Below, piece after piece: positions 1-36,021 of a stretch of 36,021 nucleotides of DNA. The DNA comes from a virus: positions 1 through 36,021 of IMG/VR virus record IMGVR_UViG_3300044712_000573; one strand, 5' to 3'. Position 1 is the first letter of the stretch; every line of letters begins with the position of its first letter. The notes beneath the pieces were generated by a model. The model saw only the letters and a list, made by a program, of their open reading frames with translations, had not been told where the DNA came from and did no database searches. A program made the translations under genes and the position numbers.

Positions 1-2
1 TT

Positions 3-137
3 TATGACCCGAAGGATGGGGCCTTTGAGAAGTGGGTGCCAAGATCGGTCATTGAGGACGGTGACCAGCTTGAGGAAGGCTTGAACCAAGACATTGAGGT
101 GGCTGGGTGGTTTGCCACCAAAGAGGGCATTGAGTGA
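3..137 (+). CDS. C-terminal part of a small phage protein (gene spans the window edge)
   Basis: This is an open frame from the left edge to a TGA at 135-137, giving 44 residues with no start of its own. Joined through the 7-base terminal overlap to the fragment starting at 35948, it completes a 67-residue soluble protein. The pattern WVPRS followed later by VAGWFATKEGI resembles small phage proteins of unknown function that carry a W-[IVL]-P-[KR]-S element and end in a W-[FL]-A-x-K-E-G motif. I know no function for them. It lies between the RecB-like nuclease and the zinc-ribbon-like gene of the early operon. The family resemblance is from memory; the frame continuity is read directly. Confidence 0.75.
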   Translation, partial: YDPKDGAFEKWVPRSVIEDGDQLEEGLNQDIEVAGWFATKEGIE

Positions 138-172
138 ATATCGGTGAGCCAAGGTTGGCTTAAACCATGTTG

Positions 173-202
173 TGGCAGTGGTGGGGTGACCTGCCACTGC
201 CA
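173..202 (+). other. Intergenic hairpin between two early genes
   Basis: A perfect 9-bp inverted repeat, TGGCAGTGG (173-181) and CCACTGCCA (194-202), has a 12-base loop. No T-tract follows, so it is not a standard intrinsic terminator. It swallows the ATG at 202, which is one reason to place the next gene's start at 232. Confidence 0.55.
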
Positions 203-231
203 TGGCAAGGTCTTTCAAGTGGGGGCTTGGA

Positions 232-474
232 ATGAATAGCTGTGCGTGCGGTCTGCATTTTATTGGGGTGGGGAAATGTCCCCGGTGCCAGCGTGAGGAA
301 GCTCTCAGCACTGAGGTGACTAAGCTAAAAACTCACATCAAGTCCGTTGACAGTGTGCTGAGCCAAGTGGTTACCACGGCTGAAAGCACTGAGAGCTTGG
401 AAGCACGCTGCTACGTTATGCGTGACCTTTGCCGTGCTGCTCTCAATCTCAACCGTGAATGGGGGGCAAAATGA
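232..474 (+). CDS. Small zinc-ribbon-like early protein
   Basis: The product is 80 residues of unknown function. The N-terminus carries CACG and, about ten residues on, CPRC, a CxC...CxxC pattern typical of a small zinc-binding knuckle. The rest is polar and probably helical. The start at 232 is preferred over the in-frame ATG at 202, because 232 follows a GGGGG tract while 202 lies in a hairpin. The stop overlaps the next start as ATGA, suggesting translational coupling. Binding of zinc and nucleic acid is inferred only from the cysteine spacing. Confidence 0.65.
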   Translation: MNSCACGLHFIGVGKCPRCQREEALSTEVTKLKTHIKSVDSVLSQVVTTAESTESLEARCYVMRDLCRAALNLNREWGAK

Positions 475-692
475 AAAACATCATCAAAAACCACATGGCA
501 AAAAGCATGAGTCAGTCAATGACCATTGCCGTGAGTGACTTTCCTTGGTGGGTAAGATTGCTACTACCACTATTTCCGTGGCGCGTGATCTTTAAGCGTG
601 GGTTTTACTCTGGTGTAGCCTACTCAGCGGTGCTGCAGGACAAGGGGCACTATGGTAAGGCCATCATCAAAGCAATGGGGGCCATCAGGTGA
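471..692 (+). CDS. Hypothetical small early protein with hydrophobic segment
   Basis: The product is 73 residues, starting at an ATG that overlaps the previous stop (ATGA) with a G6 tract just upstream. An earlier in-frame ATG at 459 is less likely because the G-tract would then lie inside the gene. A hydrophobic, tryptophan- and proline-rich stretch (around residues 24-38, with PWWVRLLLPLFPW) could associate with or cross the membrane. The C-terminus is basic. The gene overlaps the helicase start as GTGA. I do not recognise the family. Confidence 0.6.
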   Translation: MKNIIKNHMAKSMSQSMTIAVSDFPWWVRLLLPLFPWRVIFKRGFYSGVAYSAVLQDKGHYGKAIIKAMGAIR

Positions 693-1963
693 TAAGGAAA
701 GGCATCAAGGTCCTAGACTTCCAGATGGCTGGTGGCAACTTTATCTGGAAAGCCAAGGCTTGCATCATCGGTGATGAGATGGGACTTGGTAAGACTTTGC
801 AGGCCCTGTACTTTGCTGACATGTGCAACATGAGGAGCTTAGTTGTCTGTCCAGCCTACCTCATTGACACTTGGAAAGCAGAGGTTGAGAAGTTTCTCAC
901 CCGGACCAATGCCACCATTGATTTTATTTCCTATGACATGCTGAAAAAGCAGAGCATGAAGTTTTTTGAGGACTATGATTTTGTCATTGCTGATGAGGTA
1001 CAATACCTCAAGTCTTTGAAGGCCCTCAGGACTCAAGCCTTTCACCAATGCTTTGAGACAGCCACACCGGATTACTTTGTTGGTCTGAGTGGCACACCTG
1101 TCAAGAATAGGGTTACTGAGTGGTACTCCCCACTCCTACTCATCTCAAAGCATCCATCCACGTCTAACGGTCTCAGGATGTCTGACTACTTCAAAAGTGA
1201 GCAGGCTTTCTGTGACTATTTCAGCCACTACAAAGAGCTAAATCTCAAAGTGCATGTGAGGACCCGTGGGGGCACCATGCTCAAAGACGTGAAGGTGAAA
1301 AAGTACACTGGCCTGAAACAAGGCAAGGTGAAGGCCCTCAAGAAACTTCTCAAGGGTAAGTACATCAGACGCAAAGCAGACAAAATTTTGGACTTGCCAC
1401 CACTCATTGAGAAGGTGGTGCAGTACCCAATAGCAGAGCTTAAAAAGCTTGATGAGAGGATGCAGGCTGACTTTCTTTACGGTGCCTCTCACCTCACTAC
1501 AACCAAGGCTCTCTCAGCCAAGGTAAAAGCCTACTTCACCTCAAAGTACGTCCTAGACATCATTGACCAAGCGGGGAGTGTAGTGGTTTTCACGGACCAC
1601 GTTGAGTCCTGTGAGGTCCTATTCACTGAAATCATGAAAAAGCACCCCGTGGGCATCATCCAGGGGAGTACCCCAGCCAAGAATAGGCACCAGCGGGTAG
1701 CTGAGTTGCAGGCTGGTAAGATCAAGGCCCTTGTGTGCACAATCGGTGCAGCCGGGGTGGGTTTTACGATGACCAAGGCATCTAACATTGTCATGAATGA
1801 TGTGTCATGGGTGCCCGGTGACAACTGGCAAGCCATCAAGCGCATCCATCGCATTGGTCAGGGAAACCCATGCTGTGTGCACTACATTGTGGGAAGTGAG
1901 ATTGACGGGCAGATTTTAAAAACGCTTAGGAGTAAAGAGCGGGAATTGAGAGAGGCACTATGA
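689..1963 (+). CDS. SNF2-family (DEAD-like) helicase/translocase
   Basis: This 424-residue SF2 ATPase starts at a GTG that overlaps the preceding stop. Visible motifs are GDEMGLGKT (Walker A, residues 28-36), ADEVQ (motif II, about 101-105, where cellular SNF2 proteins usually have DEAH), GLSGTP (motif III, about 132-137), a motif IV region VVFTDH near 300, GAAGVGF (motif V) and IHRIGQ (motif VI, about 386-391). Almost nothing precedes Walker A, so this is a minimal SNF2 engine without accessory domains. Phage homologues are common in replication operons, where they are thought to move along dsDNA, remodel protein-DNA complexes or help recombination. Here it sits among a methyltransferase and several nucleases. 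The family is very secure; the in vivo role is inferred. Confidence 0.93.
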   Translation: MIRKGIKVLDFQMAGGNFIWKAKACIIGDEMGLGKTLQALYFADMCNMRSLVVCPAYLIDTWKAEVEKFLTRTNATIDFISYDMLKKQSMKFFEDYDFVIADEVQYLKSLKALRTQAFHQCFETATPDYFVGLSGTPVKNRVTEWYSPLLLISKHPSTSNGLRMSDYFKSEQAFCDYFSHYKELNLKVHVRTRGGTMLKDVKVKKYTGLKQGKVKALKKLLKGKYIRRKADKILDLPPLIEKVVQYPIAELKKLDERMQADFLYGASHLTTTKALSAKVKAYFTSKYVLDIIDQAGSVVVFTDHVESCEVLFTEIMKKHPVGIIQGSTPAKNRHQRVAELQAGKIKALVCTIGAAGVGFTMTKASNIVMNDVSWVPGDNWQAIKRIHRIGQGNPCCVHYIVGSEIDGQILKTLRSKERELREAL

Positions 1964-2935: not shown

Positions 2936-3118
2936 ATGAAAGAGGCTACACGGTATCAGTACCAAAAAAGAATAGCTGAGCTTGAGGCACGGGTGAGAGA
3001 GTTGGAAAGGTGGCAAAGCTTTGGCCGTGAAGTTTATGACTGGCTTGTGGGCTGCATTGGTGGCACTCCCAACATTGCCTTTGGTCTAAAGCTATTCCGG
3101 CAAAAGGGGTTACTGTGA
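2936..3118 (+). CDS. Short coiled-coil protein
   Basis: The product is 60 residues. The N-terminal half, with RIAELEARVRELERW, has leucine/isoleucine heptad spacing and should form a short coiled coil. The C-terminal half is more hydrophobic. A GGGG tract precedes the ATG, and the stop overlaps the next gene's GTG start (GTGA). It could be an oligomerising partner of a neighbouring DNA enzyme; nothing in the sequence says which. Confidence 0.6.
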   Translation: MKEATRYQYQKRIAELEARVRELERWQSFGREVYDWLVGCIGGTPNIAFGLKLFRQKGLL

Positions 3119-3612
3119 GAGAGGCTACTTTCACTACTGAGCTACGCAACGCACTGGATAAGTGGGGGGCTTGGTCTTACAAAATTCCAGACTTCCCATA
3201 CAGACAAGCCTTGGTTACTCAATTCGCACCAGAGAAACCCTGTGACATCATCGCACTCAAAAAGGGCACCTTCTATGGCATTGAGACCAAGATGGCAAGG
3301 AAATGGGAAGCTTTTGGCATAAAGGACCTCACACGCTCTCAGCTGAGAAACCTGTACCTCATGCACCTGCAAGGGGGGCAAGCCTTGGTAGCCCTCTGTG
3401 TGCGTATTCCACAAGAGCGCATCAGGTACCGCTTTTTTAAATTCATTGACCTGCACACCAGACAGAGGTGGCTTGCAAAAGAGTTGAGAGAGCTAACGTG
3501 GGACCAGTATGAGGGCGGTGTGATTGTGCTGGAAAACAGTAAGACGTTGAAGGAAACTCAGGGAGTAAGCATAGAGCCTACTCCCTGTAAAATGTCACCT
3601 CACTTAGCGTAG
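3115..3612 (+). CDS. PD-(D/E)XK endonuclease, RecU/Holliday-junction-resolvase-like
   Basis: The product is 165 residues with a GTG start. A conserved acid near the N-terminus (FTTEL, E9) is followed by KPCDII (D44), then GIETK (E57 and K59) and a downstream Q-R-N helix. This is the D...ExK arrangement of the RecU-type fold, in which a strand ending in ExK is followed by an SF/AF loop, a Q..L helix and GGxA(L/F)VAL, all of which can be seen here. RecU-like phage enzymes cut branched DNA to clear recombination intermediates before packaging. The last 13 bases overlap the opposing regulator gene. A VRR-NUC-type assignment is the main alternative. Confidence 0.75.
   Translation: MREATFTTELRNALDKWGAWSYKIPDFPYRQALVTQFAPEKPCDIIALKKGTFYGIETKMARKWEAFGIKDLTRSQLRNLYLMHLQGGQALVALCVRIPQERIRYRFFKFIDLHTRQRWLAKELRELTWDQYEGGVIVLENSKTLKETQGVSIEPTPCKMSPHLA
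3559..3587. other. Perfect inverted repeat at the 3' end of the RecU-like gene
   Basis: CAGGGAGTA (3559-3567) and TACTCCCTG (3579-3587) form a perfect 9-bp stem with an 11-base loop, inside the coding end and just before the convergent stop codons. There is no T-tract. It could separate the two convergent transcripts. Its arms are one base away from the repeated octamer GGGGAGTA. Confidence 0.5.
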
Positions 3613-3837: not shown

Positions 3838-3866
3838 GGTATAGATGGGGAGTATTTCGTAGTCAA
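3838..3866 (-). promoter_or_regulatory. Predicted sigma-70-type promoter for the small regulator
   Basis: Read on the minus strand, TTGACT (3866-3861) is followed after 17 bases by TATACC (3843-3838). That is 5/6 and 4/6 matches to the sigma-70 consensus at ideal spacing. The -35 overlaps that of the divergent promoter, and one copy of GGGGAGTA (plus strand, 3847-3854) lies in the spacer. Confidence 0.5.
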
Positions 3867-3888
3867 GACTAACGCACTGTGCTAAAAT
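3860..3888 (+). promoter_or_regulatory. Predicted sigma-70-type promoter for the second early operon
   Basis: TAGTCA (3860-3865), a 17-base spacer and TAAAAT (3883-3888) match the consensus at 4/6 and 5/6. It faces right and lies 20 bases before the ATG at 3909, so the leader would be short. Its -35 overlaps the -35 of the opposing regulator promoter. Confidence 0.5.
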
Positions 3889-3908
3889 CAGAGCCAGAGG
3901 TGACTACT

Positions 3909-4145
3909 ATGAAAACCAAAGTATCCGTGAAATCCACGGACCCAAGAAAGCCAAAAATCATGGCCGCTTTAAAACGCCGCTCTGGTGCCAACCGGGTGAC
4001 CAATGTTGTAGAGCTTTGGACCCAATCAGGGGCACTGGCCGGGCACTATTTCAGGGGCCATTGCATGAAGCTCAACCCCACCACAGGCTTTTATGACAGC
4101 ATTGGTGAAACCACCATTGCAGCTGCAGAAGCTGGGTTGGAGTAA
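3909..4145 (+). CDS. Hypothetical basic protein, first gene of second early operon
   Basis: The product is 78 residues from an ATG preceded by AGAGGTGA at good spacing. The in-frame ATG at 3879 is rejected because it lies within the predicted promoter. The N-terminus is strongly basic (KPKIMAALKRRSGAN), followed by a compact segment with YFRGHCMKLNPTTGFYDSIGE. Basic charge and operon context suggest nucleic-acid contact, but I recognise no family. Confidence 0.65.
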   Translation: MKTKVSVKSTDPRKPKIMAALKRRSGANRVTNVVELWTQSGALAGHYFRGHCMKLNPTTGFYDSIGETTIAAAEAGLE

Positions 4146-4149: not shown

Positions 4150-4428
4150 ATGACATCAAGCCAATTTCAAGAGTGCATCAGACACTTATACTGCATGGGA
4201 CTTGAGGACTTCAGACGCACATGGGGCAGAAGTCCAGAGGGCATGGGTGACTACTATTGGGACAAATTTCTTGGTTTCAAGAAAAACCCAGCTGAATTTA
4301 TCTGCTACTTGGACGGTGGTGGGATGCGTGATCTATTCAGGGAATTTCAGAGGCACTTGAGCAAGGCCATAGACCCCAATGACGGTCTCAAGGCCAACCT
4401 TGATAAGCTCACGGGGGTGCGGTCATGA
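4150..4428 (+). CDS. Hypothetical early protein upstream of the Topo VI-like gene
   Basis: The product is 92 residues. The start at 4150 is supported by GGAG eight bases upstream (4138-4141); an earlier in-frame ATG at 4093 lies inside the preceding gene. It is aromatic-rich (several F, Y and W between residues 20 and 55) and soluble, with no clear motif. Its stop overlaps the next start as ATGA, so its product is probably made with the Topo VI-like protein and may work with it. That link is contextual only. Confidence 0.6.
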   Translation: MTSSQFQECIRHLYCMGLEDFRRTWGRSPEGMGDYYWDKFLGFKKNPAEFICYLDGGGMRDLFREFQRHLSKAIDPNDGLKANLDKLTGVRS

Positions 4429-5327
4429 CACTCATCAAGTACATAGACCGTCGTTTTGCACCCAGTGCTTTGGAAACCATCAAGGTGGCCAATGGCATCA
4501 TTGCTGAGTATCAAAAGCAGGGCTTTGACCTGACCCTGAGGCAGCTGTACTACCAGTTTGTTGCCCGTGGTATTCTTGCCAACAAGCTCATTGAGTACAA
4601 GAAACTGGGGAGTATCATAAATGATGCCCGGCTTGCTGGACTCATCAGCTGGGATGCCATTGTTGACCGCACTCGAAACCTGCAGGGTAACAACCACTGG
4701 AATAGTCCACAGGACATTGTTGCAGCCTGTGTAAATCAGTACAAGGTGGACAAGTGGGCCAACCAACCCAACCACGTTGAGGTGTGGATTGAGAAAGACG
4801 CACTCATTGGTGTCATTGAGAAGGTCTGCAGAGAGCTTGATGTGTCCTACTTCTCTTGCAGGGGCTACACCTCTCAGTCAGAGATGTGGTCAGCTGGGAT
4901 GCGGTTGAAGCGTCACAAGAGCAATGGACAACAACCACATGTCATCCACCTTGGTGACCATGACCCAAGTGGTAAGGACATGACCCGTGACATTGATGAC
5001 CGGCTTGCCCTATTCATTGGTGGTGCTGGGTGCAAGGTCAACCGCATTGCTCTCAACATGGACCAAGTTGAGAAGTACAACCCGCCACCCAACCCAGCCA
5101 AGACTACTGACAAGAGGGCCAAGCGATACATTGAGGAGTATGGCCATGACTCTTGGGAGTTGGATGCCCTTGACCCACCCGTGATTGAAAAACTCATCCG
5201 TAAAGAGGTGCTGAAACTGAGAGATGAGGACCTGTGGGGTGAGATGGTGGAAAAAGAGGACAGGCACAAGCGGGTGTTGCAGGACTCAATGGACAACATG
5301 CCGGATGAGGATGAGGACGATGAGTAA
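4425..5327 (+). CDS. Topoisomerase VI subunit A / Spo11-like protein (Mini-A-like)
   Basis: The product is 300 residues. The N-terminal part has LTLRQLYYQFVARG (36-49), matching the helix of the Topo VI-A/Spo11 winged-helix domain that holds the catalytic tyrosine (Y42 or Y43). A Toprim domain follows: VWIEKDAL supplies the metal-binding glutamate (E123), and HLGDHDPSGKD (175-185) supplies the DxD pair (D178, D180; DPDPYG in cellular enzymes). The C-terminus is an acidic tail (DNMPDEDEDDE). No GHKL ATPase subunit B is encoded anywhere in the window. Short B-less A subunits from mobile elements have been described as Mini-A. Plausible roles are DNA cleavage or nicking in replication or recombination; the activity here is untested. 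Confidence 0.85.
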   Translation: MTLIKYIDRRFAPSALETIKVANGIIAEYQKQGFDLTLRQLYYQFVARGILANKLIEYKKLGSIINDARLAGLISWDAIVDRTRNLQGNNHWNSPQDIVAACVNQYKVDKWANQPNHVEVWIEKDALIGVIEKVCRELDVSYFSCRGYTSQSEMWSAGMRLKRHKSNGQQPHVIHLGDHDPSGKDMTRDIDDRLALFIGGAGCKVNRIALNMDQVEKYNPPPNPAKTTDKRAKRYIEEYGHDSWELDALDPPVIEKLIRKEVLKLRDEDLWGEMVEKEDRHKRVLQDSMDNMPDEDEDDE

Positions 5328-5556
5328 GACAGCACTTTTAATTTTTGTGTGTCTCACCCCAGTGGCCTATGCCACTACGGGGTGGGATGCACAAAAGGCT
5401 CTGGTCACCATTGAGATTGTGGCCACTGAGCCAGCGGTGGACTTAGATTTTTTGAATGACTGTGAGTATCTTTTTTACGGGTATTGTCTGGGAAGCGGTG
5501 GGGACTGCCCTAAGTTTCCTAAAATTGAAAGTGAGGAGTATGACCATGAAAAATAA
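5320..5556 (+). CDS. Small exported (periplasmic) protein with signal peptide
   Basis: The product is 78 residues. The first 18 (MSKTALLIFVCLTPVAYA) are a classic Sec signal ending in an AYA cleavage site, and there is no lipobox cysteine at the cut. The mature part of about 60 residues is acidic and carries a cluster of three cysteines in a DCEY...GYC...GDC pattern that could form a disulfide. It overlaps the Topo VI-like gene by 8 bases and the TM2 gene by 11. Export during early expression suggests action on the envelope, for example superinfection exclusion; that is inference. Confidence 0.7.
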   Translation: MSKTALLIFVCLTPVAYATTGWDAQKALVTIEIVATEPAVDLDFLNDCEYLFYGYCLGSGGDCPKFPKIESEEYDHEK

Positions 5557-5878: not shown

Positions 5879-6042
5879 ACCACCAGCCCCAAAGCTTCCA
5901 AAACCTCTTTTGACGCCTTAAAACTGCCCTTGTAGCCATCAAAATACCCCCTTTTTGACTCGTTTCCGGTGTGGTAGTGTACTTGTACACTGCCACAACT
6001 AGAGCGGAATGAAGCGGGGACCAGCACTGTCAACCCACCCAT
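5845..6042 (-). CDS. Possible last gene of the late arm (hypothetical)
   Basis: This 65-residue frame begins at an ATG inside the phosphoesterase gene (44-base overlap) and ends within the terminator stem. Its C-terminal half, including SKRGYFDGYKGSFKASKEVL, is well-behaved protein sequence that lies wholly downstream of the phosphoesterase stop, which argues for real coding. The start is weakly supported and could lie elsewhere. The family is unknown. The alternative is that this is non-coding trailer sequence. Confidence 0.4.
   Translation of the reverse strand: MGGLTVLVPASFRSSCGSVQVHYHTGNESKRGYFDGYKGSFKASKEVLEALGLVVKRKAWHSSGH
5971..5996. promoter_or_regulatory. 26-bp near-perfect palindrome at the convergence point
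   Basis: Two 12-base arms, GTGGTAGTGTAC (5971-5982) and GTACACTGCCAC (5985-5996), are separated by TT, with one mismatch. The two-base centre is too tight for an RNA hairpin but is typical of a protein-binding operator or recombinase core. It lies three bases from the phosphoesterase stop. The binding protein is unknown. Confidence 0.45.
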
Positions 6043-6673
6043 AGCCCCATGTCCACTTGGTAACCGTGGTTGGCCTGTAGCGCATCGGGATTGCAGTGGG
6101 GTCACCAAGGTACCCACAGTCCAACTCCCAGAGAGTCTTGCCGTGGATGCGTAGGGAAACACAGCCCCCCACATGGGAGTGAGCACGCACCACGGACCTG
6201 AGAAAGTATTTCATGTGGTCACCAAGCTTGGCCCAGCCGTGCAGGTATCCCACACCGTTTAGTATCAGTAGCTCTTTCTCATCAAAGATTGTCTCAACAC
6301 CGGGGAAGCGGTAAAAATCTTTATCGTCAAAGAATGGCTCAAGCTCTGGTGCCTTCTCAAGCAAGAGCTTTAGTGCACGGGCATCATGGTTACCGCGTAG
6401 CTGGTACCGCTTGCTCTCTGGGCTAGCTTGAGTGATCTTGGCCCACAACCTCTCAGCCTGACCCCGGCCAACATCAGCCTCACGCTGGGGTGTGATGATG
6501 CCTTGAGACCTTGCAAAACGGCTCTGAGCAAAACGGTCATAGAGGTCACCCATCTGGATGATGGTGCCCGGCTTTTTTTCCTCAATGACTTTTAAGATTT
6601 TTTCGACAAGGGACTTTTTGGACCAGATAAGGTGAAGGTCACCAACACATAAAACCGCATCCTTGCAGTCCAT
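5999..6673 (-). CDS. Calcineurin-like metallophosphoesterase
   Basis: The product is 224 residues. The metal-binding signatures are all present: GDLH (11-14), GDLYDR (42-47), GNHD (94-97), LHGW (144-147) and AHSH (164-167, in place of the usual GHTH). An AAAGG site precedes the ATG by six bases. The fold covers protein phosphatases, nucleotide phosphodiesterases and Mre11/SbcD nucleases. At this length, with no capping domain, it cannot be assigned a substrate. It is unusual as the promoter-distal gene of the late arm, separated from the endolysin gene by 209 non-coding bases. Confidence 0.9.
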   Translation of the reverse strand: MDCKDAVLCVGDLHLIWSKKSLVEKILKVIEEKKPGTIIQMGDLYDRFAQSRFARSQGIITPQREADVGRGQAERLWAKITQASPESKRYQLRGNHDARALKLLLEKAPELEPFFDDKDFYRFPGVETIFDEKELLILNGVGYLHGWAKLGDHMKYFLRSVVRAHSHVGGCVSLRIHGKTLWELDCGYLGDPTAIPMRYRPTTVTKWTWGYGWVDSAGPRFIPL

Positions 6674-6882
6674 CCAGTGCCTTTCTTGGGTTACTCCCCA
6701 AGTTGTTTCTCACTACGTTTTCAAGTCCCCGTTAGCATCGTTTCTACGTTGCGAGTCCACGGGGTCACGGACACCACAGAAGTGGAAATGGCTGAATGTC
6801 GCACGTCAACCGCTAGCAGCCACCCCCGTGCACGATGCCTTCACACCGCATATGTCACCCAGCGGTTGAGACCTCAAAAACT
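6674..6882. other. Non-coding gap in the late arm with hairpins
   Basis: No frame with an acceptable start spans this 209-base gap. It holds a 6-bp hairpin CTTGGG (6685-6690) / CCCAAG (6697-6702) whose loop and 3' arm contain the octamer TACTCCCC, and a long-range 9-bp inverted repeat TCAACCGCT (6806-6814) / AGCGGTTGA (6861-6869). In such a dense genome, a gap this size probably has a regulatory or RNA function. Confidence 0.45.
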
Positions 6883-7386
6883 TTAGCCAAGACTTGCCAT
6901 CAACCCCAAAACATCATCAACGTACTCTTGGTTGACAAACTTCCCACCTGACCCCATCCGTGGGGACCCCGCATTATACGCGGCAATGACCGCAGTGAGG
7001 TTATACCCCCTATTGAATAGTCGCGTGAGTTGTCTGCATCCGTACTCAAGGCCCACTTGAGGTAGGCACAACTCAGATGGGAAACGATTAAAAGAAAGCC
7101 CACACTCATAGGCCACGGTACCCATGACCTGCATCATGCCCCAAGACATTGCTTGCATCGTAAAGCAAGAGGACATGGGCTGTGAGAGGGACTTGGCAAT
7201 CTCTGTGCTTTCTGGGTGAAAGTAAGTCCAGTTTCTCTCATACCGGATGGCAAAAGAGTTGCCTTTGCTCTCTTTGTAGACGATGGCTGACACCAGTTTC
7301 CAGTCAAGGCTGTGGTGCTCAGCCGTGGTCTTTATGAGACCTATGGGAAGCTCTTGCCACCACTTGTCTGGTATCACCAACATCAC
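6883..7386 (-). CDS. Endolysin: lytic transglycosylase (SLT-type)
   Basis: The product is 167 residues. The lytic transglycosylase signatures are clear: catalytic glutamate in YKESKGN (E39), SWGMMQVMG (81-89, the G-L-M-Q motif) and AAYNAGSP (135-142). It would cleave peptidoglycan between MurNAc and GlcNAc. There is no obvious cleavable signal sequence, so release would depend on a holin, and several small membrane proteins are encoded immediately upstream. The start overlaps the lipoprotein gene's stop. The motif set is strong enough to make this the lysis enzyme. Confidence 0.92.
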   Translation of the reverse strand: MMLVIPDKWWQELPIGLIKTTAEHHSLDWKLVSAIVYKESKGNSFAIRYERNWTYFHPESTEIAKSLSQPMSSCFTMQAMSWGMMQVMGTVAYECGLSFNRFPSELCLPQVGLEYGCRQLTRLFNRGYNLTAVIAAYNAGSPRMGSGGKFVNQEYVDDVLGLMASLG

Positions 7387-14419: not shown

Positions 14420-14422
14420 GTC

Positions 14423-26071: not shown

Positions 26072-26084
26072 TTATACCCCCTAT

Positions 26085-27576: not shown

Positions 27577-27578
27577 GA

Positions 27579-27701: not shown

Positions 27702-27772
27702 GGCTTGTGAAACACCAAGATGAGTGCAAGGCCAACAATGATGCTGAGCCACCCCGCTGTCTCAGCACTCAT
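27698..27772 (-). CDS. 24-residue single-span membrane peptide
   Basis: MSAETAGWLSIIVGLALILV plus four residues is nearly all one transmembrane helix. Its ATG overlaps the small-terminase stop and its stop overlaps the next ATG, both as ATGA, so it is likely translated. A function in the packaging module is not obvious; a membrane-tethering or regulatory peptide is conceivable. Confidence 0.5.
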   Translation of the reverse strand: MSAETAGWLSIIVGLALILVFHKP

Positions 27773-28206: not shown

Positions 28207-28215
28207 GTGCCCCCC

Positions 28216-29208: not shown

Positions 29209-29372
29209 AGCTGCCCCCTTGGTTGAGCACCAAGGTACCTGTCAAAATTATGACGGTCAACTACGCTCAGCAATTCCTTTAAAAATGTGATTGACGGTTG
29301 GCATGGCTGTCTGGCAGGGTATTGGGTTACATGCGATTAGAGGAAATGGCCAAAACCTGTTTTGCACACTTA

Positions 29373-29400
29373 GGTGGTGAGTCTACCAAGGCTCACCACC
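29373..29400. other. 9-bp inverted repeat in the late leader
   Basis: GGTGGTGAG (29373-29381) and CTCACCACC (29392-29400) pair perfectly with a 10-base loop. Neither strand has a T-tract. It would lie in the 5' leader of the late mRNA if the promoter at 29446-29475 is right. Confidence 0.5.
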
Positions 29401-29445
29401 AACCCTATTGTCAGGGTAAAGTGGTCAACCGGAAATACCTCAATA

Positions 29446-29475
29446 AATGTATCAACTACTTTTTGAGTTTATCAA
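29446..29475 (-). promoter_or_regulatory. Predicted promoter of the late arm
   Basis: Read on the minus strand, TTGATA (29475-29470) is followed after 18 bases by TACATT (29451-29446), 5/6 and 4/6 matches to sigma-70 elements. Two of the TCAAC repeats overlap it, so a bound regulator could control it. It would leave a leader of about 230 bases before the glycosyltransferase. Confidence 0.35.
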
Positions 29476-29551
29476 CCATTTCATTTAGTTGCATCACTTG
29501 GTGCCACTCAACTTACTTAACGCTTAACGCTTTTGATTTTTGCGTACCCCA

Positions 29552-29578
29552 CTCACTCAGTGGTGAGTGAGATTTTTT
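29552..29578 (+). terminator. Intrinsic terminator or attenuator upstream of the early arm
   Basis: CTCACTCA (29552-29559), loop GTGG, TGAGTGAG (29564-29571), then ATTTTTT (29572-29578) is a compact rightward terminator. No plus-strand gene precedes it, so it must end a short non-coding transcript from this region or attenuate the early mRNA. Confidence 0.7.
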
Positions 29579-29604
29579 AAAACAGTACGGTTCAATTGTT
29601 TTAA
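29577..29604. promoter_or_regulatory. Inverted TTAAAAC repeat before the early arm
   Basis: TTAAAAC (29577-29583) and GTTTTAA (29598-29604) are 14 bases apart and flank the AT-rich block where the early promoter should lie; a possible -10, TAAGAT, is at 29613-29618 without a convincing -35. An operator or origin-unwinding role is possible. Confidence 0.35.
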
Positions 29605-29712
29605 GTAAATAGTAAGATATGCAAGTGGCGTGCCAAGGGGGTGTTTCTCAGAAAAAATAGTTCTGTCCGGGGTCAATGGGTGTGTGCAACGTAAAACAGG
29701 GGGTTTCCTTCC

Positions 29713-31212
29713 ATGGTATCTGCAGTGGTGTCTTACCTACTCCGCGATAGCGGGGTAGACTTCAACTATTCAAGCAACGCAAAAATTGTGATTGGCCGGT
29801 TTAAGCAGGATAAAAAGACTTTCCCGCACTGGCTCAATACCCACATGGCCAAAAACTTTGACCACATTCCAGCAAGCTTGCTGGACTTAAAGAAGTTGCC
29901 AAGTGGGGAGTATAAGCAGGTGTGCGCTTCCATCTTTGATGCCTTGGTCACTGAGATAGTGCCACAGGCTGAGCCAACTGAAATACCCAACGGTGTGGCC
30001 ATTGCCGATGCAGCCCACATGCACAAGCTCTACCCCGCACAGTACCTGAATGACCACAACGCTGTGACCTTTAGAATGTACAACGTGGAAACGGGTGCCT
30101 TGTCTGACTACTCCTACCAGTATTGGAAAATGCGGGTGGATAAGAAAACCCATGATGAGAGGGTGAGCAGGGCCATTGCTGCAGTCTTTGAGTATGACCC
30201 CTATGACCCAGCACCACTAAAAGAGGTGGTGATTGACCGTGCGCCAGCCTCACGCTTCAACCTGTACAAAAAGCCAAGCTGGATGGACCTTGAATACTCT
30301 GGCCAGCTGCCAGAGCTTGCCAAAAAGTTTTTCTCTCACATGTTTCCAGACCCTAAGTGCAGGTCCTACATCTATACTTGGATGCACCGGATGCTCACCA
30401 CGCGGTCTGAGATTTATCTCTACCTACCAGCACCAAAGGACACGGGCAAAACCACCTTTGCATACCTGTGTGGTGCCTTGGTTGGTCATGACAACTTTGA
30501 GTTGGCCAAGAGTGACTTTGCTGAAAACCACTTCAATGCTTTTGTTGCCAACCGTAGGCTCATCTTACTGGATGAGTATAATTGCTGGTCCAACAATGAG
30601 AAAGACACCCTCAAGCGCATCATCAATGACCGCATCCAGATTGAGGCAAAGGGACAAGACCAAAAGACCGTAACCAACTACTCCTCATTTATCATCTGCA
30701 ACAACAACAATGAGGGCATATTTATTGAGCCAGATGACAGACGATTCTCCATCCCAGAGGTGACACGGGAAAAAATCTCTGACCACTTCACGGCTGAGGA
30801 GTTGGCTGAGTTGAATGCAGAGATTGAAAGTGAGTGCAGCCAATTTATTGCTGACATCGGTCACTGGATACTGCAAAACTTTGAGGGCAAGTACAGCAAG
30901 CGTGAGACCCCATGGCATAAAGAGCGGTTTGAGGAAATTGTTTTCTCAAGTGCCAGAGAGGGCATGAAGTACATCATTGACCAGATTGTGGCAAAGAAGG
31001 CTCAAAAATATACCTATGCAAAGCTCAGGGCTGAGTATCGAAGTCTTGTTGGCCGCAACGTGCACTTTCCACCCCACTTTAAGGTTAGGGAGTATATCAA
31101 CGGTCTAAAGATGGACGGTAGACCCATCGCAACGTGTAGCTGGGATGGCGTGACACTCACCATCATCCCTGAGCCACGGTATTGCCCAGATAAAAAAGAT
31201 GATGAGTTTTAA
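29713..31212 (+). CDS. SF3 replicative helicase (D5-like / DUF5906 type)
   Basis: The product is 499 residues with a GGGGG tract nine bases before the ATG. The helicase core shows a P-loop PAPKDTGKTT (239-248), Walker B with LILLDEYN (283-290), sensor SFIICNNN (325-332) and an arginine-finger region DDRRFS (341-346), in the order of superfamily 3 / D5-like phage helicases. The N-terminal 230 residues have no primase motif, so priming must come from the host or another protein. Proteins of this class usually act as hexamers and can recognise the origin; this gene is next to the proposed origin region. Confidence 0.9.
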   Translation: MVSAVVSYLLRDSGVDFNYSSNAKIVIGRFKQDKKTFPHWLNTHMAKNFDHIPASLLDLKKLPSGEYKQVCASIFDALVTEIVPQAEPTEIPNGVAIADAAHMHKLYPAQYLNDHNAVTFRMYNVETGALSDYSYQYWKMRVDKKTHDERVSRAIAAVFEYDPYDPAPLKEVVIDRAPASRFNLYKKPSWMDLEYSGQLPELAKKFFSHMFPDPKCRSYIYTWMHRMLTTRSEIYLYLPAPKDTGKTTFAYLCGALVGHDNFELAKSDFAENHFNAFVANRRLILLDEYNCWSNNEKDTLKRIINDRIQIEAKGQDQKTVTNYSSFIICNNNNEGIFIEPDDRRFSIPEVTREKISDHFTAEELAELNAEIESECSQFIADIGHWILQNFEGKYSKRETPWHKERFEEIVFSSAREGMKYIIDQIVAKKAQKYTYAKLRAEYRSLVGRNVHFPPHFKVREYINGLKMDGRPIATCSWDGVTLTIIPEPRYCPDKKDDEF

Positions 31213-31215: not shown

Positions 31216-31572
31216 ATGCGGGAAATCAAACTGACCAAGGGCATGGTGGCCCTCATCTCAGATGAGGACTATGACAGGGTATCAGCACTCAAGTGGTGTG
31301 TGTCCCAAGAGGGTAGGAATGGTGCCAAGTTTTATGCCATCCGTGGCCGCCGGGTTGATGGCAAGTGGAAAAAAATACGGATGCACCATTTTATTTTAGG
31401 CGTGACATCGGACACCCTTGGGGAGTATGTCGTTGACCACATTGATGGGGATGGGCTAAACAATCAAAGAGAAAACTTGCAAGTCATCACCCGCGTGGAA
31501 AACATGGCAAGGGCACCGGGGTGGCGTGGGTCACTCTCAAAATGGGACCCACTGAGCCGGATTGATTTTTGA
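31216..31572 (+). CDS. HNH endonuclease (HNH_3-like)
   Basis: The product is 118 residues. LTKGMVALISDEDYDRVSAL is the usual N-terminal lead of this group. RMHHFILG is followed by VDHIDGDGLNNQRENLQV (73-90), in which the HNH residues are H75, the N-N pair (82-83) and the region of N87. Such stand-alone nucleases are often free-standing homing-type genes in phages and may be recent arrivals; this one is inserted between the helicase and a small gene with only three bases of spacing. No intron is evident nearby. It could also be domesticated for recombination. Confidence 0.9.
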   Translation: MREIKLTKGMVALISDEDYDRVSALKWCVSQEGRNGAKFYAIRGRRVDGKWKKIRMHHFILGVTSDTLGEYVVDHIDGDGLNNQRENLQVITRVENMARAPGWRGSLSKWDPLSRIDF

Positions 31573-31583
31573 GGAGTATGCAG

Positions 31584-31862
31584 ATGCTAATACCAAGGTT
31601 TAGAGGTAAGGTAAATGAGGTGGCTGGTGGCTTTGACTTCACCATCTGGGTGTGTCTGGGTGATGAGGACCCCATTGAGATGAGTTTCAAAGAGGTGATA
31701 CCCACTCATGATGCGGCCATGGCAAAGCTACGCACCACGGTGCTTGAGGTGCTGCACAAGACCTGTGAGGTGATGGGAGTTGAGCCAACCCACATTCTTG
31801 ACTTGAAAGAAGGCAGGTCACGCTCTTTTTCTGACTTCAGAGATGGTGGCCCATGTCACTGA
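31584..31862 (+). CDS. Hypothetical early protein
   Basis: The product is 92 residues from the ATG at 31584, seven bases after GAGGAG; two earlier in-frame starts (31569, 31578) are too near that site. The chain is alpha/beta (GGFDFTIWVCLGDEDPIEMS, then a helix AAMAKLRTTVLEVLHKTCEV). No motif is recognised. It overlaps the next gene by ten bases. Confidence 0.6.
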   Translation: MLIPRFRGKVNEVAGGFDFTIWVCLGDEDPIEMSFKEVIPTHDAAMAKLRTTVLEVLHKTCEVMGVEPTHILDLKEGRSRSFSDFRDGGPCH

Positions 31863-32059
31863 GAGATTTCAAAGACGTTGAGGTGCAGGTGCAAGGCCAG
31901 CTGAGCCACATCATTCCAAAAGAGGACTCACTGAAACATCGGGTGAGTCTTGAGTGTCCGTGCAGACCTTACCGCTATGCTATTGACCCGCTGACCCATC
32001 AGGCAATCTGGGTGCATCACCGGGTAGTTCTAGTGGGGAGTAAAAAAGATGTGGATTAG
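31853..32059 (+). CDS. Hypothetical early protein with CxC pair
   Basis: The product is 68 residues. LECPCRPYRYAIDPLTHQAI contains a CPC pair followed by a histidine-rich stretch (IWVHHRVV), which could bind a metal, although only two cysteines are available. It overlaps neighbours on both sides, by ten bases upstream and eleven downstream. Confidence 0.6.
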   Translation: MSLRDFKDVEVQVQGQLSHIIPKEDSLKHRVSLECPCRPYRYAIDPLTHQAIWVHHRVVLVGSKKDVD

Positions 32060-32168
32060 TATTTGTTGTTTTCTGGTTGGCACTGGCTACGGTTGGCTGC
32101 TACACGTCTACTCTCAGCGTCTGAAAAAAGAGCAGGGTGACCCAACCCAGCTGGAATTGGACCTATGA
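32049..32168 (+). CDS. 39-residue membrane-anchored peptide before the polymerase
   Basis: This short frame begins nine bases after GGGGAGTA, whose GGAG is a usable ribosome site. Residues 1-20 (MWISICCFLVGTGYGWLLHV) form one membrane span and the rest is charged (SQRLKKEQGDP). Its stop overlaps the polymerase start as ATGA. It could tether or regulate polymerase synthesis. Confidence 0.55.
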   Translation: MWISICCFLVGTGYGWLLHVYSQRLKKEQGDPTQLELDL

Positions 32169-34204
32169 TAAAAGTGTATCTGGACTTTGAGTACAATAGG
32201 ACCCAAGAGAAAACCCTAAACCTTGTGTGTCTTTCAATTCTCACCCAAGGCCATGACTGGCCCCATGACGGCAAAACTCAAAACATCTGGCTGCATGATG
32301 ACAACTCAGGCAAAAAGATTGCCACCCGGCTCATCCAAGACTTGAGGGACAAGGATGCAGTATTCGTTTCCTTTGCGGCTACGGCTGAGGGTAGAGCCGT
32401 TGCAAGCCTTGGCATCAACCCCATTAAAATGAAGTGGATTGACTTGCACCTTGAGTACAAGATGCTGACCAATCACTGCAACAAGATTGCCTATGGCAGA
32501 CAACTCATCAGGGGTAAAGAGACCTTCACCAAGCCCCCCAAGCCAAAGTGGAATAGGACAGAGGATGACCAAGAGGAAATCAACGCATCCAAGGCTGAGA
32601 CTAATTTAGCTGCAGCGTGTTTCAAGCTCCTCAAGGTCAAGATTGATACTGACCATAAAAAAGAGATGCGTGACCTCATCATCAGTGACCCAGAGCATTT
32701 CAGTGATGAGCAGATGGAAGCAATCATGGAATACTGTGCTGGTGACGTTGAGCACTTGCCAGCACTTCTGAAAAAGGTTGTGGCTCTGTACCGTGAAATG
32801 TACCAGCCTGATGACTTGAAAAAGGTACTCCCCGAGATGCTACTCAGGGGTGAGTATGCAGCACGCACGGCTGTGATGGAAAGACTTGGTTACCCAGTCA
32901 ACGTGAAGGCAGTGAAAACCTTTGTAGCCAAGGTGCCAGACATCATGCGTGAGATGTGTGAGGACATCAACTCTCAGTTTCAAAAGCGTAAGCCATTCAG
33001 GTGGAATAATAAAGCACAGCGGTACTCCATGGACCTTGGCACAATCCGCGAGTGGATTAATTTGACACAAGACGTGCGTAGGTGGCAAAAAACTGACACC
33101 GGGATGCTCTCAGTTTCCTCTGAGGCTTTTGAGGACAGATTTCACTACAGACATGACTACCCCCGTGGCAACTTTGGTGCACAGCTACTCAGATACTTTA
33201 AATTCAGAAAGTCACTCAACGGGTTTTTGCCAAAGTCACCCGATGCAAAAAATAAAGAGACCTTCCTTGACTACGTTGGCTCTGATGGGTTTTGCAGACC
33301 ATACATGAATATCTATGGTGCACAGTCCGGTAGGTCTCAGCCGAAGGCCACAAGCTTCATTCCACTCAAGGCAGCGTGGATGCGCTCTCTCATTCAGCCC
33401 CCCAAGGGTTACTTCATGGCTGCACTGGACTACTCCTCAGAGGAGTTTTTGTTAAGCAGTCTTGTGAGCCAAGACATCAACATGGTCAACGCTTACAAGT
33501 CAGGTGACCCCTACTTGTACTTTGCAATCCAAGCCGGTGCAGCACCAGAGGGTGCCACCAAAAAGACTCACGGAAAAATCAGAGAGCCTTTCAAGTCCAC
33601 CACACTGGGCTTGAGCTACGGGATGCAAGAAAAATCATTGGCTGAAAAACTCACCCAAGACACGGGTAAAGAGTACACCGCTGAGGATGCGCGTGCACTC
33701 ATTGACCAGTTTTTTCAGGTTTATGGCAGGTACAATGAGTGGCTTGGTGAAAACCTGCAAGCCTACCAAGAAAAAGGCTACATCAAGCTGCCATGTGGTT
33801 GGACCATGTGGGGTGATAATGACAACACGCGGTCAATCAACAACGTAGTCATTCAGGGCCTTGGCTCATCGGTGATGAGGAAGGCTGTGGCCCTTAGTCA
33901 AGACAGGGGAGTAGCCATCACCTTCACGCTCCATGACGCACTGTACATGATTGGCAAGTGCGGTCAGGATGAGCACAAGATTGATGTTATGTGGGGGGCC
34001 ATGTCTGAGGCTTTCAGTTTTTATTTCAAAGGTAGAGCCAAGGCTCACGCTGAGAGCATCAGGATTGATGGCAAGCTCTGGGGTCCCACGATAAAGGAAG
34101 GGGAGTACGTCACCCCCCAAGGAAAAAAACTCAAGGCTCAAAAAATTCACGTTGACGAGAGAGCACTGACCGAGTACCAACAATTCAATAAATATTTCAT
34201 TTAG
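32165..34204 (+). CDS. Family A DNA polymerase with 3'-5' exonuclease
   Basis: The product is 679 residues. The exonuclease domain shows YLDFEYN (D7, E9) and YCAGDVEHL (Y190, D194), with an altered middle motif (VFVSFAATAEGRA). The polymerase domain has LDYSSEE (motif A; D422 is the catalytic Asp), REPFKSTTLGLSYG (motif B/O-helix: R473, K477, Y485) and TLHDALYM (motif C; D591). The position matching E. coli Pol I Phe762 is leucine (L481). The glutamate that normally follows the motif C aspartate is alanine. It is the replicative polymerase of the phage, with helicase and SSB-like genes on either side. Confidence 0.95.
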   Translation: MIKVYLDFEYNRTQEKTLNLVCLSILTQGHDWPHDGKTQNIWLHDDNSGKKIATRLIQDLRDKDAVFVSFAATAEGRAVASLGINPIKMKWIDLHLEYKMLTNHCNKIAYGRQLIRGKETFTKPPKPKWNRTEDDQEEINASKAETNLAAACFKLLKVKIDTDHKKEMRDLIISDPEHFSDEQMEAIMEYCAGDVEHLPALLKKVVALYREMYQPDDLKKVLPEMLLRGEYAARTAVMERLGYPVNVKAVKTFVAKVPDIMREMCEDINSQFQKRKPFRWNNKAQRYSMDLGTIREWINLTQDVRRWQKTDTGMLSVSSEAFEDRFHYRHDYPRGNFGAQLLRYFKFRKSLNGFLPKSPDAKNKETFLDYVGSDGFCRPYMNIYGAQSGRSQPKATSFIPLKAAWMRSLIQPPKGYFMAALDYSSEEFLLSSLVSQDINMVNAYKSGDPYLYFAIQAGAAPEGATKKTHGKIREPFKSTTLGLSYGMQEKSLAEKLTQDTGKEYTAEDARALIDQFFQVYGRYNEWLGENLQAYQEKGYIKLPCGWTMWGDNDNTRSINNVVIQGLGSSVMRKAVALSQDRGVAITFTLHDALYMIGKCGQDEHKIDVMWGAMSEAFSFYFKGRAKAHAESIRIDGKLWGPTIKEGEYVTPQGKKLKAQKIHVDERALTEYQQFNKYFI

Positions 34205-34217
34205 CCGCATCATCAGG

Positions 34218-34235
34218 GCTTTGGGGGTCCAAAGC
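34218..34235 (+). other. Hairpin after the polymerase gene
   Basis: GCTTTGG and CCAAAGC form a perfect 7-bp stem with a GGGT loop, 14 bases after the polymerase stop. No T-tract follows. It may protect the 3' end of the polymerase mRNA or punctuate processing. Confidence 0.45.
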
Positions 34236-34276
34236 ATCTGCAAAACGGCTCTAACCGCACCATAAAGGGGGCATCC

Positions 34277-34888
34277 ATGGCAAAAGTAGTTACAAAAAAA
34301 CCAGCAGCATCCGCTGCAAAGAAAGCAGCCGCACCAGTCACCAAGAAACCAGCACCAAAGGCTGCAGCACCTGTAGCCAAGCAAGCAACAAAACCAGTGG
34401 CCAAGAAAGCACTGAGCAGCACCCCCAAGGGTTTCCGCAAAGTGGAAGTTGTCAAAAAATATTTCCGCTACAAGGAATGCTCACCGGGTGATGTGCTTGT
34501 GAAAGACGGTGTGTACATCGGTGACACACCCAACCAGTTTGGCCGGGACAACCATGATTTCAGAGAGAGTGATGGACAGGTTGTGAGCCTCAACGCGGCT
34601 GGGCAGCTTGACTACATCCTGCAAAACAACGTCAAGCAAGGTGACTCAGTAAAGATTGTCTATGCTGGCACCAACAAGCTCACCAGTGGGGCCTATAAAA
34701 ACAAAGACGCGCATTCTTTTGAGGTTTTTGTCAAAGGTGCTGAGGTTGAGGAAGCGGCTACCGATGAGCTTGAGGAAGAGACCACAGAGACCGATGAGGA
34801 AACTGAGACCTCAACCGATGAGCTTGAGGAAGAGACCACAGAGGAAAGCTCTGAGGGTGAAGTTGACCTTGAGGACCTTGAGGGTTGA
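34277..34888 (+). CDS. ssDNA-binding-like protein with histone-like N-terminus and acidic tail
   Basis: The product is 203 residues in three parts. Residues 1-48 are lysine/alanine/proline-rich (KKAAAPVTKKPAPKAAAPVA), like histone H1 or AlgP tails. Residues 50-155 are a folded domain with GFRKVEVVKKYFRYKECSPG at its start and KQGDSVKIVYAG near its end, compatible with an OB-type ssDNA-binding fold. Residues 156-203 are almost all E, D, T and S, like the acidic tails by which SSB and T7 gp2.5 recruit partners. A 30-base sequence (34760-34789) is repeated exactly at 34814-34843 within the tail. It lies next to the polymerase and RecB-like nuclease. Confidence 0.7.
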   Translation: MAKVVTKKPAASAAKKAAAPVTKKPAPKAAAPVAKQATKPVAKKALSSTPKGFRKVEVVKKYFRYKECSPGDVLVKDGVYIGDTPNQFGRDNHDFRESDGQVVSLNAAGQLDYILQNNVKQGDSVKIVYAGTNKLTSGAYKNKDAHSFEVFVKGAEVEEAATDELEEETTETDEETETSTDELEEETTEESSEGEVDLEDLEG

Positions 34889-35066
34889 TTTAATTTTGTC
34901 CTAAACCTGACCTCTCAGTCTACCTGTTAAAACACCATGAGAGAGGTCACCCTATTGGTCAAGACTGTGCATCATTATGAGTGATGTGAGCTTGACCACT
35001 GGGTGGGTGGGTCACTTAAATTGGCCCACCCACCCAAAACCAAGGGCTTTCAAAGAAAGGTCTCTC
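34889..35066 (+). ncRNA. Candidate structured RNA: three consecutive inverted repeats
   Basis: There is no gene here. Three perfect inverted repeats follow one another: TGACCTCTC (34908-34916)/GAGAGGTCA (34941-34949); TGGTCAAG (34956-34963)/CTTGACCA (34991-34998), which encloses a further CATCA/TGATG pair; and TGGGTGGGTGGG (35000-35011)/CCCACCCACCCA (35025-35036). None has a T-tract. The last ends 30 bases before the nuclease ATG at 35067. Such a run of exact helices suggests a folded leader or small RNA; no known class is recognised. Confidence 0.5.
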
Positions 35067-35951
35067 ATGTCTACTGAAATACGCAAAGGCACCAAGGTGG
35101 GTGACACACGGCTGTCATACTCCTCATCTGACCTACTTCAAAATTGCACTGAAAAATATTGTCACCGCAAAGTGTGGATGAGTGAGCCAGACACGGATGT
35201 TGACCGGGATGAGGGTGCACTCAACATTGGCAAGGCTTTCCACATGGTGGTGGAAAAATGTAAGCACGATAAGCAGCCAACCTTGGCTCTGGTCAAAGAG
35301 GCTTGCAAGGTGCACAGCTGTGTTGACTCTCAGGCTTTGGTGCACGCCATGACCATGAAAAACTACAAGCTGCACAAGCGCACGGGACTTACCTGCCTTG
35401 CAACTGAGTTTGAAATCAGTAACCCAATATTCATTGGCTACGTTGACGCTGTACTGGGTGACAAGCTTGGCTGGTGGGTTACGGACTTGAAAACGGCAAG
35501 CAATCTCAGTGACACCAAGGTGGCAAGACTCCACAAGGATGTGCAGCTAAATCTCTATGCAAGCTTTGCTGAGATGATTGCCAAGATGTTCAAGCTGGAC
35601 CCCGCTAAATTCCGGGGTGCACGCTACAGGGTCACAACCAAGTCACTCATCAAGCCATTGAAGGATGAGGCATATGAGTCCTACGTCAAAAGGCTCTACA
35701 GTGCCATTGAGAGCATTGATGTGATTGTACCGCGTGAAATCATGGCACCAGAGAAAGCCTTTGCTCTGCACAAGAGGCTGCACGCTCTCAGCATGGCCTT
35801 GAGAGAGGGCAAGATCAAGCCACGGCAAAACTACAGCCACTGTGACTCTTATTTCACACCGTGTGAGTTTTGGTCCAAGTGCCATGGTGACAACTTCACT
35901 GTGCTCAAAGAGAAACTTGTCAGGATTGATGCAGACAGGGGCAAGGTATGA
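35067..35951 (+). CDS. RecB/Cas4-like PD-(D/E)XK exonuclease with Fe-S cysteines
   Basis: The product is 294 residues. AAAGG seven bases upstream sets the start; an in-frame ATG at 34977 lies inside the structured leader. Motifs are SYSSSDLLQNC near the N-terminus, GKAFH (H59), YVDAV (D126), TDLKTAS (D140 and K142) and QLNLY (Q160, Y164). Cysteines C27/C32 plus C259, C266 and C272 are placed like the four iron-sulfur ligands of Cas4/AddB nucleases. Such phage enzymes process DNA ends for recombination. No cas1 or CRISPR array is present, so this is a recombination enzyme, not a CRISPR component. Confidence 0.88.
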   Translation: MSTEIRKGTKVGDTRLSYSSSDLLQNCTEKYCHRKVWMSEPDTDVDRDEGALNIGKAFHMVVEKCKHDKQPTLALVKEACKVHSCVDSQALVHAMTMKNYKLHKRTGLTCLATEFEISNPIFIGYVDAVLGDKLGWWVTDLKTASNLSDTKVARLHKDVQLNLYASFAEMIAKMFKLDPAKFRGARYRVTTKSLIKPLKDEAYESYVKRLYSAIESIDVIVPREIMAPEKAFALHKRLHALSMALREGKIKPRQNYSHCDSYFTPCEFWSKCHGDNFTVLKEKLVRIDADRGKV

Positions 35952-36021
35952 GGGATGGGGTAGTAGTGTCCTGTGGCATCCTCAGGACCACTGAAAAAGC
36001 GGTGCTGTGTGAGTTTTATGA
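35948..36021 (+). CDS. N-terminal part of a small phage protein (gene spans the window edge)
   Basis: This frame starts at an ATG overlapping the nuclease stop (ATGA) and runs off the right edge after 24 codons (MRDGVVVSCGILRTTEKAVL, then CEFY). The final seven bases equal bases 1-7, and the frame continues without a break into 3-137. The whole protein would be 67 residues. It belongs to the early operon. Confidence 0.75.
   Translation, partial: MRDGVVVSCGILRTTEKAVLCEFY

Follow-up and report, generated by a model that had tools for sequence, protein, structure and literature searches.

A G-rich asymmetric octamer repeated across a phage record from IMG/VR: a possible Chi-like site among strongly avoided words

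The IMG/VR virus record IMGVR_UViG_3300044712_000573, analysed here over its full length of 36,021 bases (the window, to which the counts below refer), carries the G-rich octamer GGGGAGTA in 21 exact copies, 13 on the plus strand and eight on the minus strand, where it reads TACTCCCC. The octamer is far commoner than the encoded proteins and the base composition explain, and its copies are part of a longer asymmetric word, TGRGGAGTA, which occurs 27 times; the pattern of GGGGAGTA read backwards has no occurrence in the window. It is most likely a signal read by a host DNA-processing enzyme, and TGRGGAGTA, with GGGGAGTA as its core, is tentatively interpreted as a positively selected, asymmetric recognition word acting at the DNA level, in the first place a Chi-like site. 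An earlier note on this DNA had drawn attention to the 21 copies, every one of which was found on recount at the position it gave, and its interpretation is supported in part; it overlooked that the octamer sits in the sole tolerated context of the otherwise avoided GGAG family.

Under Markov models, the check that the earlier note had proposed, GGGGAGTA ranks first of all octamers by z-score, with 0.42 copies expected at order 3 and 0.61 at order 2. At order 6 the expectation rises to 14.9, because a model of that order already contains the heptamers of GGGGAGTA; since the answer depends on the order, Markov models alone were dropped and codon-preserving nulls were used instead. Resampling of codons with the proteins kept yielded 2.35 copies on average and six at most in 200 samples, and a codon-preserving null in which gene overlaps and non-coding bases were fixed gave an expectation of 5.3. 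The proteins permit the octamer at 42 places, counted in single-gene regions on both strands, and 16 of these carry it, against 1.17 expected from codon use. This occupancy and the resampling mean establish that the excess is real, as had been claimed together with the statement that codon use does not explain it. GGGGAGTA is also first by z-score in the codon null, closely followed by AGCCTTGG (18 of 62 permitted places) and TGATTTCA (16 of 42).

The repeated word has sharp edges. Three single substitutions of the octamer are clearly raised over expectation (G1A, 6 against 1.7; G2A, 11 against 2.0; A8G, 4 against 0.7) and A5T slightly so (3 against 0.9), the remaining ones being near or below expectation. 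The near-copies that had been said to add further sites do so, GAGGAGTA with 11 occurrences and AGGGAGTA with six. A T stands at position -1 in 16 of the 21 copies of GGGGAGTA and in all 11 of GAGGAGTA, and T or A in 20 of 21 copies of GGGGAGTA against 13 of 31 other GGGGA (p = 8e-5), which gives the consensus TGRGGAGTA. Around the copies, no strong base preference was found outside positions -1 to +8, so that about nine bases are common to them. A longer repeat or mobile element was rejected as the source: none of 20 direct-repeat families examined (of at least 60) is built on the word. Of 25 inverted pairs examined, two (I1 and I20, with 74 and 78% complementarity) include copies by coincidence.

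The copies were placed on 45 genes hand-picked from a mechanical list of open reading frames (ORFs); 16 of the 21 lie wholly within the coding sequence of a single gene and one more nearly so. In the following, T stands at -1 unless another base is given. Sense copies lie in the SNF2-like helicase gene 689-1963 (1663-1670, plus strand, A at -1, read as Q-G-S), the topoisomerase-like gene 4425-5327 (4607-4614, plus, L-G-S), gene 14423-15571 (14591-14598, minus, W-G-V), gene 23463-24005 (23852-23859, minus, M-G-S), the portal-like gene 24536-26071 (24637-24644, minus, A at -1, Q-G-S), the primase-like gene 29713-31212 (29905-29912, plus, G-E-Y), the HNH gene 31216-31572 (31420-31427, plus, G-E-Y) and, twice, the DNA polymerase gene 32165-34204 (33906-33913, plus, A at -1, R-G-V; 34100-34107, plus, A at -1, G-E-Y). 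Antisense copies are found in the same helicase gene (1124-1131, minus), in genes 7383-7784 (7566-7573, plus), 7908-8096 (7926-7933, plus) and 8802-9428 (9366-9373, plus), in the tail gene 18459-19976 (18580-18587, plus), in the glycosyltransferase-like gene 28216-29208 (28486-28493, plus) and in the polymerase gene (32826-32833, minus, C at -1). A minus-strand copy falls in the overlap of genes 8653-8949 and 8802-9428 (8848-8855), and another at the start of the terminase small subunit-like gene 27769-28206 (28197-28204). Two copies occupy gaps, one ahead of ORF 3879-4145 (3847-3854, plus) and one upstream of gene 5999-6673 (6692-6699, minus), and one lies in ORF 31853-32059 (32035-32042, plus, V-G-S), which is non-coding in the gene list used. 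The GAGGAGTA variants are at 5133-5140, 5533-5540, 15321-15328, 19626-19633, 25373-25380 and 31571-31578 on the plus strand and at 20018-20025, 25485-25492, 30679-30686, 33431-33438 and 35118-35125 on the minus strand.

Relative to the genes, 11 copies are sense, seven antisense and three outside the gene list. The octamer takes all three sense frames and two of the three antisense frames, in agreement with the several frames noted before, and it is raised on both gene strands (9 against 0.9 expected sense, 7 against 0.4 antisense); the effect is therefore on DNA and not on mRNA. The distribution along the window is uneven. With the structural block taken as 9,425-28,200, which is 52% of the window, 16 of the 21 copies lie outside it (p = 0.014), and the permitted places are used in 12 of 18 cases outside and 4 of 24 inside (p = 0.0014). 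GATC, CTAG, AGCCTTGG and TGAGCTTG have no significant positional bias in the window. A post hoc strand contrast between genome parts is weak (12:4 against 1:4, p = 0.047).

The octamer stands in a genome with many avoided words. Of the 64 six-base palindromes the window lacks 38, where trinucleotide frequencies predict that 6.9 would be missing; some of those present, CTGCAG and CAGCTG among them, exceed their expected counts. With the proteins kept, GATC occurs 36 times against 252 expected, GAAC/GTTC, a phosphorothioation (Dnd) consensus, 20 against 192, CCAGG 3 against 74 and CAGCAG/CTGCTG 1 against 24.5; CCWGG is strongly depleted. GGAG occurs 100 times against 275 expected, and its fate depends on the next base: GGAGA 8 against 82, GGAGC 11 against 60, GGAGG 0 against 67 and GGAGT 81 against 65, so that T follows GGAG in 81 of 100 cases and GGGAG in 47 of 47. 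The depletion of GGAG before bases other than T affects both gene strands (10 against 139 sense, 5 against 64 antisense), and an mRNA-level cause was therefore rejected; T4 RegB is an example of a GGAG-specific RNase. The avoided words look like targets of host defences, and the genome appears to be a strong case of restriction-site avoidance as known from phages and bacteria, with which it shares missing palindromes and a shortage of GATC, CCWGG and further words; so many words are missing, and with them the Shine-Dalgarno core (described below), that the case looks extreme beside the relatives with which it was compared. Two enriched words were also seen on the side. CGATCTT occurs seven times against 0.31 expected (order 3), at 41, 5778, 8299, 14474, 17941, 22510 and 26226, and 7 of the 18 remaining GATC sites lie within it; like GGAG, the avoided GATC thus has an enriched exception. 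The 198-word avoidance model described next predicts 0.3 copies of GGAAACGA and does not account for the six present, at 5960, 7080, 11073, 18056, 28569 and 32364.

An over-represented word can be inflated by the avoidance of its neighbours. To separate the two, we suggest measuring the word against those one-base neighbours that are not avoided, in a null that preserves the proteins and imposes avoidance only. Such a null was Gibbs-sampled (200 samples) with proteins and codon preferences kept and with 198 depleted words of 4-6 bases penalised, none containing GGAGT; it superseded a first model in which 132 words were penalised, GGAG as a whole among them, and 2.1 copies of GGGGAGTA were expected. 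GGAG ahead of A, C or G comes out right in the 198-word null (18.7, with 19 observed), and so does RGGAGT ahead of C, G or T (29.3, with 28 observed). The null falls short on RGGAGTA (11.9, maximum 19, against 42 observed), on TGRGGAGTA (5.2, maximum 9, against 27) and on GGGGAGTA itself (3.2, maximum 9, against 21). With all depleted 5-mers penalised, 5.2 copies of GGGGAGTA are expected, and it is still the top octamer, at a Poisson probability of about 0.005 over all octamers. Avoidance thus inflates the octamer count but does not fully explain it, and the excess persists in models of words of up to five bases as well as in the selected 198-word model.

The interpretation as a Chi-like site is preferred, tentatively. 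A host helicase-nuclease of the RecBCD/AddAB type would read the G-rich word while unwinding a DNA end, and at the word would stop destroying DNA and load a recombinase; a phage without a recombinase or nuclease inhibitor of its own would gain from many copies, above all near its replication genes. That the reader is a recombination nuclease, as well as everything said here about the host, we infer from the pattern of sites. What resembles Chi are the sharp edges, the presence on both gene strands and in several frames, the greater density outside the structural module, and the failure to find any recombinase- or RecBCD inhibitor-named family when 46 ORFs were scanned against PHROGs, although 23 of these ORFs had no match at all. 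Among the candidates named in the earlier note the Chi-like site fits best, and packaging, modification and simple protein-binding sites found no direct support. Lambdoid phages offer the closest comparison: PMC3784561 reports that those without recombinases over-represent Chi (GCTGGTGG, read by RecBCD), that the sites are concentrated between the replication genes and the terminase, near the replication origin, and that the observed-to-expected medians are 2.3 overall, 3.1 for phages without recombinases and 4.8 for the virion-sequenced of these. The window shares with them a G-rich, asymmetric, over-represented octamer, the lack of a detected recombinase or nuclease inhibitor, and a density greater around the replication genes than in the structural block; it differs in the word, in a far larger excess, in a density of 0.58 copies per kb with both strands counted (21 copies over 36,021 bases; 0.2 per kb is reported for lambdoid Chi), in a reader that is a candidate only, and in the possession of a RecB-like exonuclease.

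Several observations weigh against this reading. When all depleted hexamers are penalised, 9.8 copies of GGGGAGTA are expected, and when the full hexamer spectrum is fitted, 14.6; neither model leaves a significant excess among the 32,896 octamers, and the signal is thus carried by hexamers, although such nulls are lenient and near-circular because they nearly copy the observed spectrum. AGCCTTGG is likewise in excess under the 198-word model (20 against 3.7; 9.7 expected with 5-mers fitted for avoidance only, 12.1 when fitted signed). The ratio of observed to expected GGGGAGTA, 34 at order 2, is much above the lambdoid medians. The strands do not differ significantly (13:8, p = 0.38), and the two thirds formerly ascribed to the coding strand stand as a count, 14 of 21 when the three unassigned copies are given the orientation of whichever gene or ORF follows, and not as a significant bias (14:7, p = 0.19). 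GGGG, too, is denser outside the structural block (135 inside, 159 outside, p = 0.036), which leaves 5 copies of GGGGAGTA per 135 GGGG inside and 16 per 159 outside (p = 0.041); GAGGAGTA, with 5 of its 11 copies inside, has no such bias, that of TGRGGAGTA is of borderline significance (p = 0.055), and the boundary of the block, natural as it is, was set after the sites had been seen. The phage may have recombination functions of its own, in the form of a PD-(D/E)XK (RecB-like) exonuclease gene at 34977-35951 on the plus strand and a possible Holliday junction resolvase at 3115-3612, also plus (PHROGs E 4e-5, with Pfam Hjc and RecU below cut-off). The octamer is not conserved in the distant relatives examined: 26 of them, counted over whole records, have 0 to 4 copies each (all records counted bar L001, which is identical to part of the window, and the metagenome-assembled genome (MAG) G027, some of the 26 being near-duplicates). 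This absence, which the earlier note had named as a refutation, is a weak one, because a signal read by the host need not be common to phages of other hosts. Finally, the word coincides with precisely the context that the avoided GGAG family leaves open, and this favours a by-product. Because there is no significant strand polarity and the word occupies this tolerated context, confidence in the Chi-like site is modest; it is slightly lower, and that in a by-product slightly higher, for the part of the positional bias that GGGG shares and for the possible resolvase.

A by-product of restriction-site avoidance is in fact a near-equal rival, because the hexamer-fitting models, with their 9.8 or 14.6 copies, leave no significant octamer signal. 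In this explanation GGAG before any base but T, and many other words, would have been lost from the genome, presumably because of host defences, with GGGGAGTA a survivor used wherever the protein allows; indeed, part of its excess is such a by-product, since the octamer lies in the only tolerated context of the strongly avoided GGAG. The invariable T after GGGAG, the complete absence of GGAGG and of 38 palindromes, the depletion of GATC, GAAC/GTTC and CCAGG, and the fact that other octamers, TGATTTCA for example, similarly saturate their permitted places all agree with it. Against it stand the 198-word null, which never exceeds nine copies, the all-5-mer null, in which GGGGAGTA is still top and significant, and the weight of the last A, since RGGAGTA is far above the 12 expected although RGGAGT followed by the other bases is not avoided; positional bias and the preference at -1 are not predicted by genome-wide avoidance either. 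Less likely than these two, but not negligible, is another host or phage DNA-binding protein as reader of the word, be it a stoperator-like repressor site, a KOPS-type segregation signal or a HIP1-like word kept by methylation. The G-rich, asymmetric octamer, present within genes and between them, would suit such a protein. The KOPS (FtsK orienting sequences) are G-rich polar octamers whose consensus resembles the first six bases of GGGGAGTA; we know of no phage use of KOPS, and the strand bias expected of them is not seen, GGGGAGTA having no strand polarity. In cyanobacteria, PMC4390886 describes highly iterated octamers tied to methyltransferases, and HIP1 is like GGGGAGTA a single octamer that recurs along a genome in large excess; HIP1 is palindromic, belongs to bacterial chromosomes and is tied to methyltransferases, GGGGAGTA is not palindromic, no methyltransferase is tied to it, and the scans of the window, with 17 ORFs run against Pfam, matched no DNA methyltransferase family. 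Asymmetric stoperators spread over phage genomes are described in PMC9283540. A stoperator array would come with a cognate repressor gene and lie mostly at gene boundaries; here 16 of the 21 copies are inside single-gene coding sequence, and PHROGs scans of the 46 ORFs, 23 of them without any match, gave no repressor- or integrase-named match. Chance, an assembly artefact or a small spreading repeat is very improbable: the Poisson probability of at least 21 copies, multiplied by 32,896 octamers, is at most 0.009 in every null of that comparison without hexamer fitting, L001 repeats two copies within 4,900 identical bases (it may be from the same sample), and the copies share little beyond about nine bases.

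The avoidance of GGAG appears to extend to ribosome-binding sites. GGAGG, their usual core, is absent on both strands of the window, and in the stretch 4 to 18 bases upstream of 45 starts GGGGG is found at 12 (0.45 expected from within-gene controls) and GGAG at 4 (0.72 expected); examples of the former are at 19977-19994, 26072-26090, 28207-28225 and 34255-34276. A GGGGG core can pair with CCUCC through one G-U wobble. In the relatives, where starts were counted from crude ORF calls and L001 was set aside as the same phage, GGAG is commoner than GGGGG upstream of starts, and GGGGG occurs at 0 to 2 starts per locus. The phage may thus have given up GGAGG to escape a defence acting on DNA. A Shine-Dalgarno core exchanged for wobble-pairing GGGGG would, if true, be a striking cost of escaping DNA-level restriction, and literature searches returned no paper matching by title on Shine-Dalgarno loss by avoidance. 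Taken as a whole, the following picture is rather doubtful: that TGRGGAGTA is an undescribed Chi-type word of an uncultured host, placed at most of the permitted non-structural places (12 of 18), in a phage whose remaining vocabulary, ribosome-binding sites included, has been rewritten against unusually broad DNA-targeting defences. If true, two opposite selections on short words, both at their limits, would act in one genome. Few bacterial groups have a known Chi word, and strongly selected phages could reveal such words without a cultured host. The main text of a Chi survey, PMC8022716, gives no word starting with GGGG and does not mention phages. Literature searches for over-represented octamers in phages gave no paper matching by title, and among the matches listed for a text search with the octamer string none was by its title about such a repeat; one of them, the announcement of a Serratia phage (PMC9387219), contains the string a single time.

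Nothing nearer than distant relatives was found for the window, apart from L001. This 4,900-base IMG/VR record is identical to 24,924-29,823, and viral contigs searched with the terminase, portal, primase and capsid returned L001 only, or nothing. The DNA polymerase relatives have 32 to 46% identity (tblastn); L019 (5,259 bases, outside the 26 records) has no copy of GGGGAGTA, and eight topoisomerase relatives, parts of records, have 0 or 1 each. Viral contigs were also scanned for pairs of neighbouring copies. Of the 85 stretches so obtained, eight exceed the window in density, all of them short and with between 2 and 8 copies; none of the 85, which were pre-chosen for a pair and are in many cases contig parts, has a comparable number of scattered copies. 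The only genome match is a 38 kb phage-like contig inside a Bacteroidia MAG; over the 2.2 Mb of this MAG the octamer occurs 25 times and its reversed control 10 times, which does not make a convincing host. Palindrome avoidance may run in part of the relative group, with different words, because several relatives lack many palindromes while others are hardly affected: among the DNA polymerase relatives, all of them contig parts, 29 are absent against 1.0 expected in L013, 31 against 3.8 in L010 and 9 against 5.9 in L007. GATC is also missing from the Silvanigrella phage L002 (CP017838.1; 0 against 144 expected) and scarce in L024 (4 against 127).

The gene content is that of a phage as judged by PHROGs and Pfam scans, which identified SNF2-like helicase, topoisomerase-like, portal-like, terminase, major head protein, tail tape measure and primase-like genes, together with a family A DNA polymerase, the RecB-like PD-(D/E)XK nuclease and the weak Holliday junction resolvase match. 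The sole methyltransferase domain, at 2178-2750, belongs to Methyltransf_11 and related Pfam groups and not to a DNA methyltransferase family (17 ORFs against Pfam). No tRNA genes were found in the window. CpG stands at about 0.43 of expectation in the window, with TG/CA at 1.44, and at a similar 0.41 to 0.48 in the relatives L008, L012, L016, L018, L024 and L026, perhaps reflecting a shared host group or methylation history. The densest stretch of the contig scan, L034, has eight copies over 4,790 bases, of which those at 1359-1429, at least, are due to a 21-base tandem repeat (1335-1437), whose unit carries TGGGGAGTA and is unrelated to the scattered copies of the window. In L008, the DNA polymerase gene (9049-11987) is interrupted by an extra stretch whose beginning appears intein-like.

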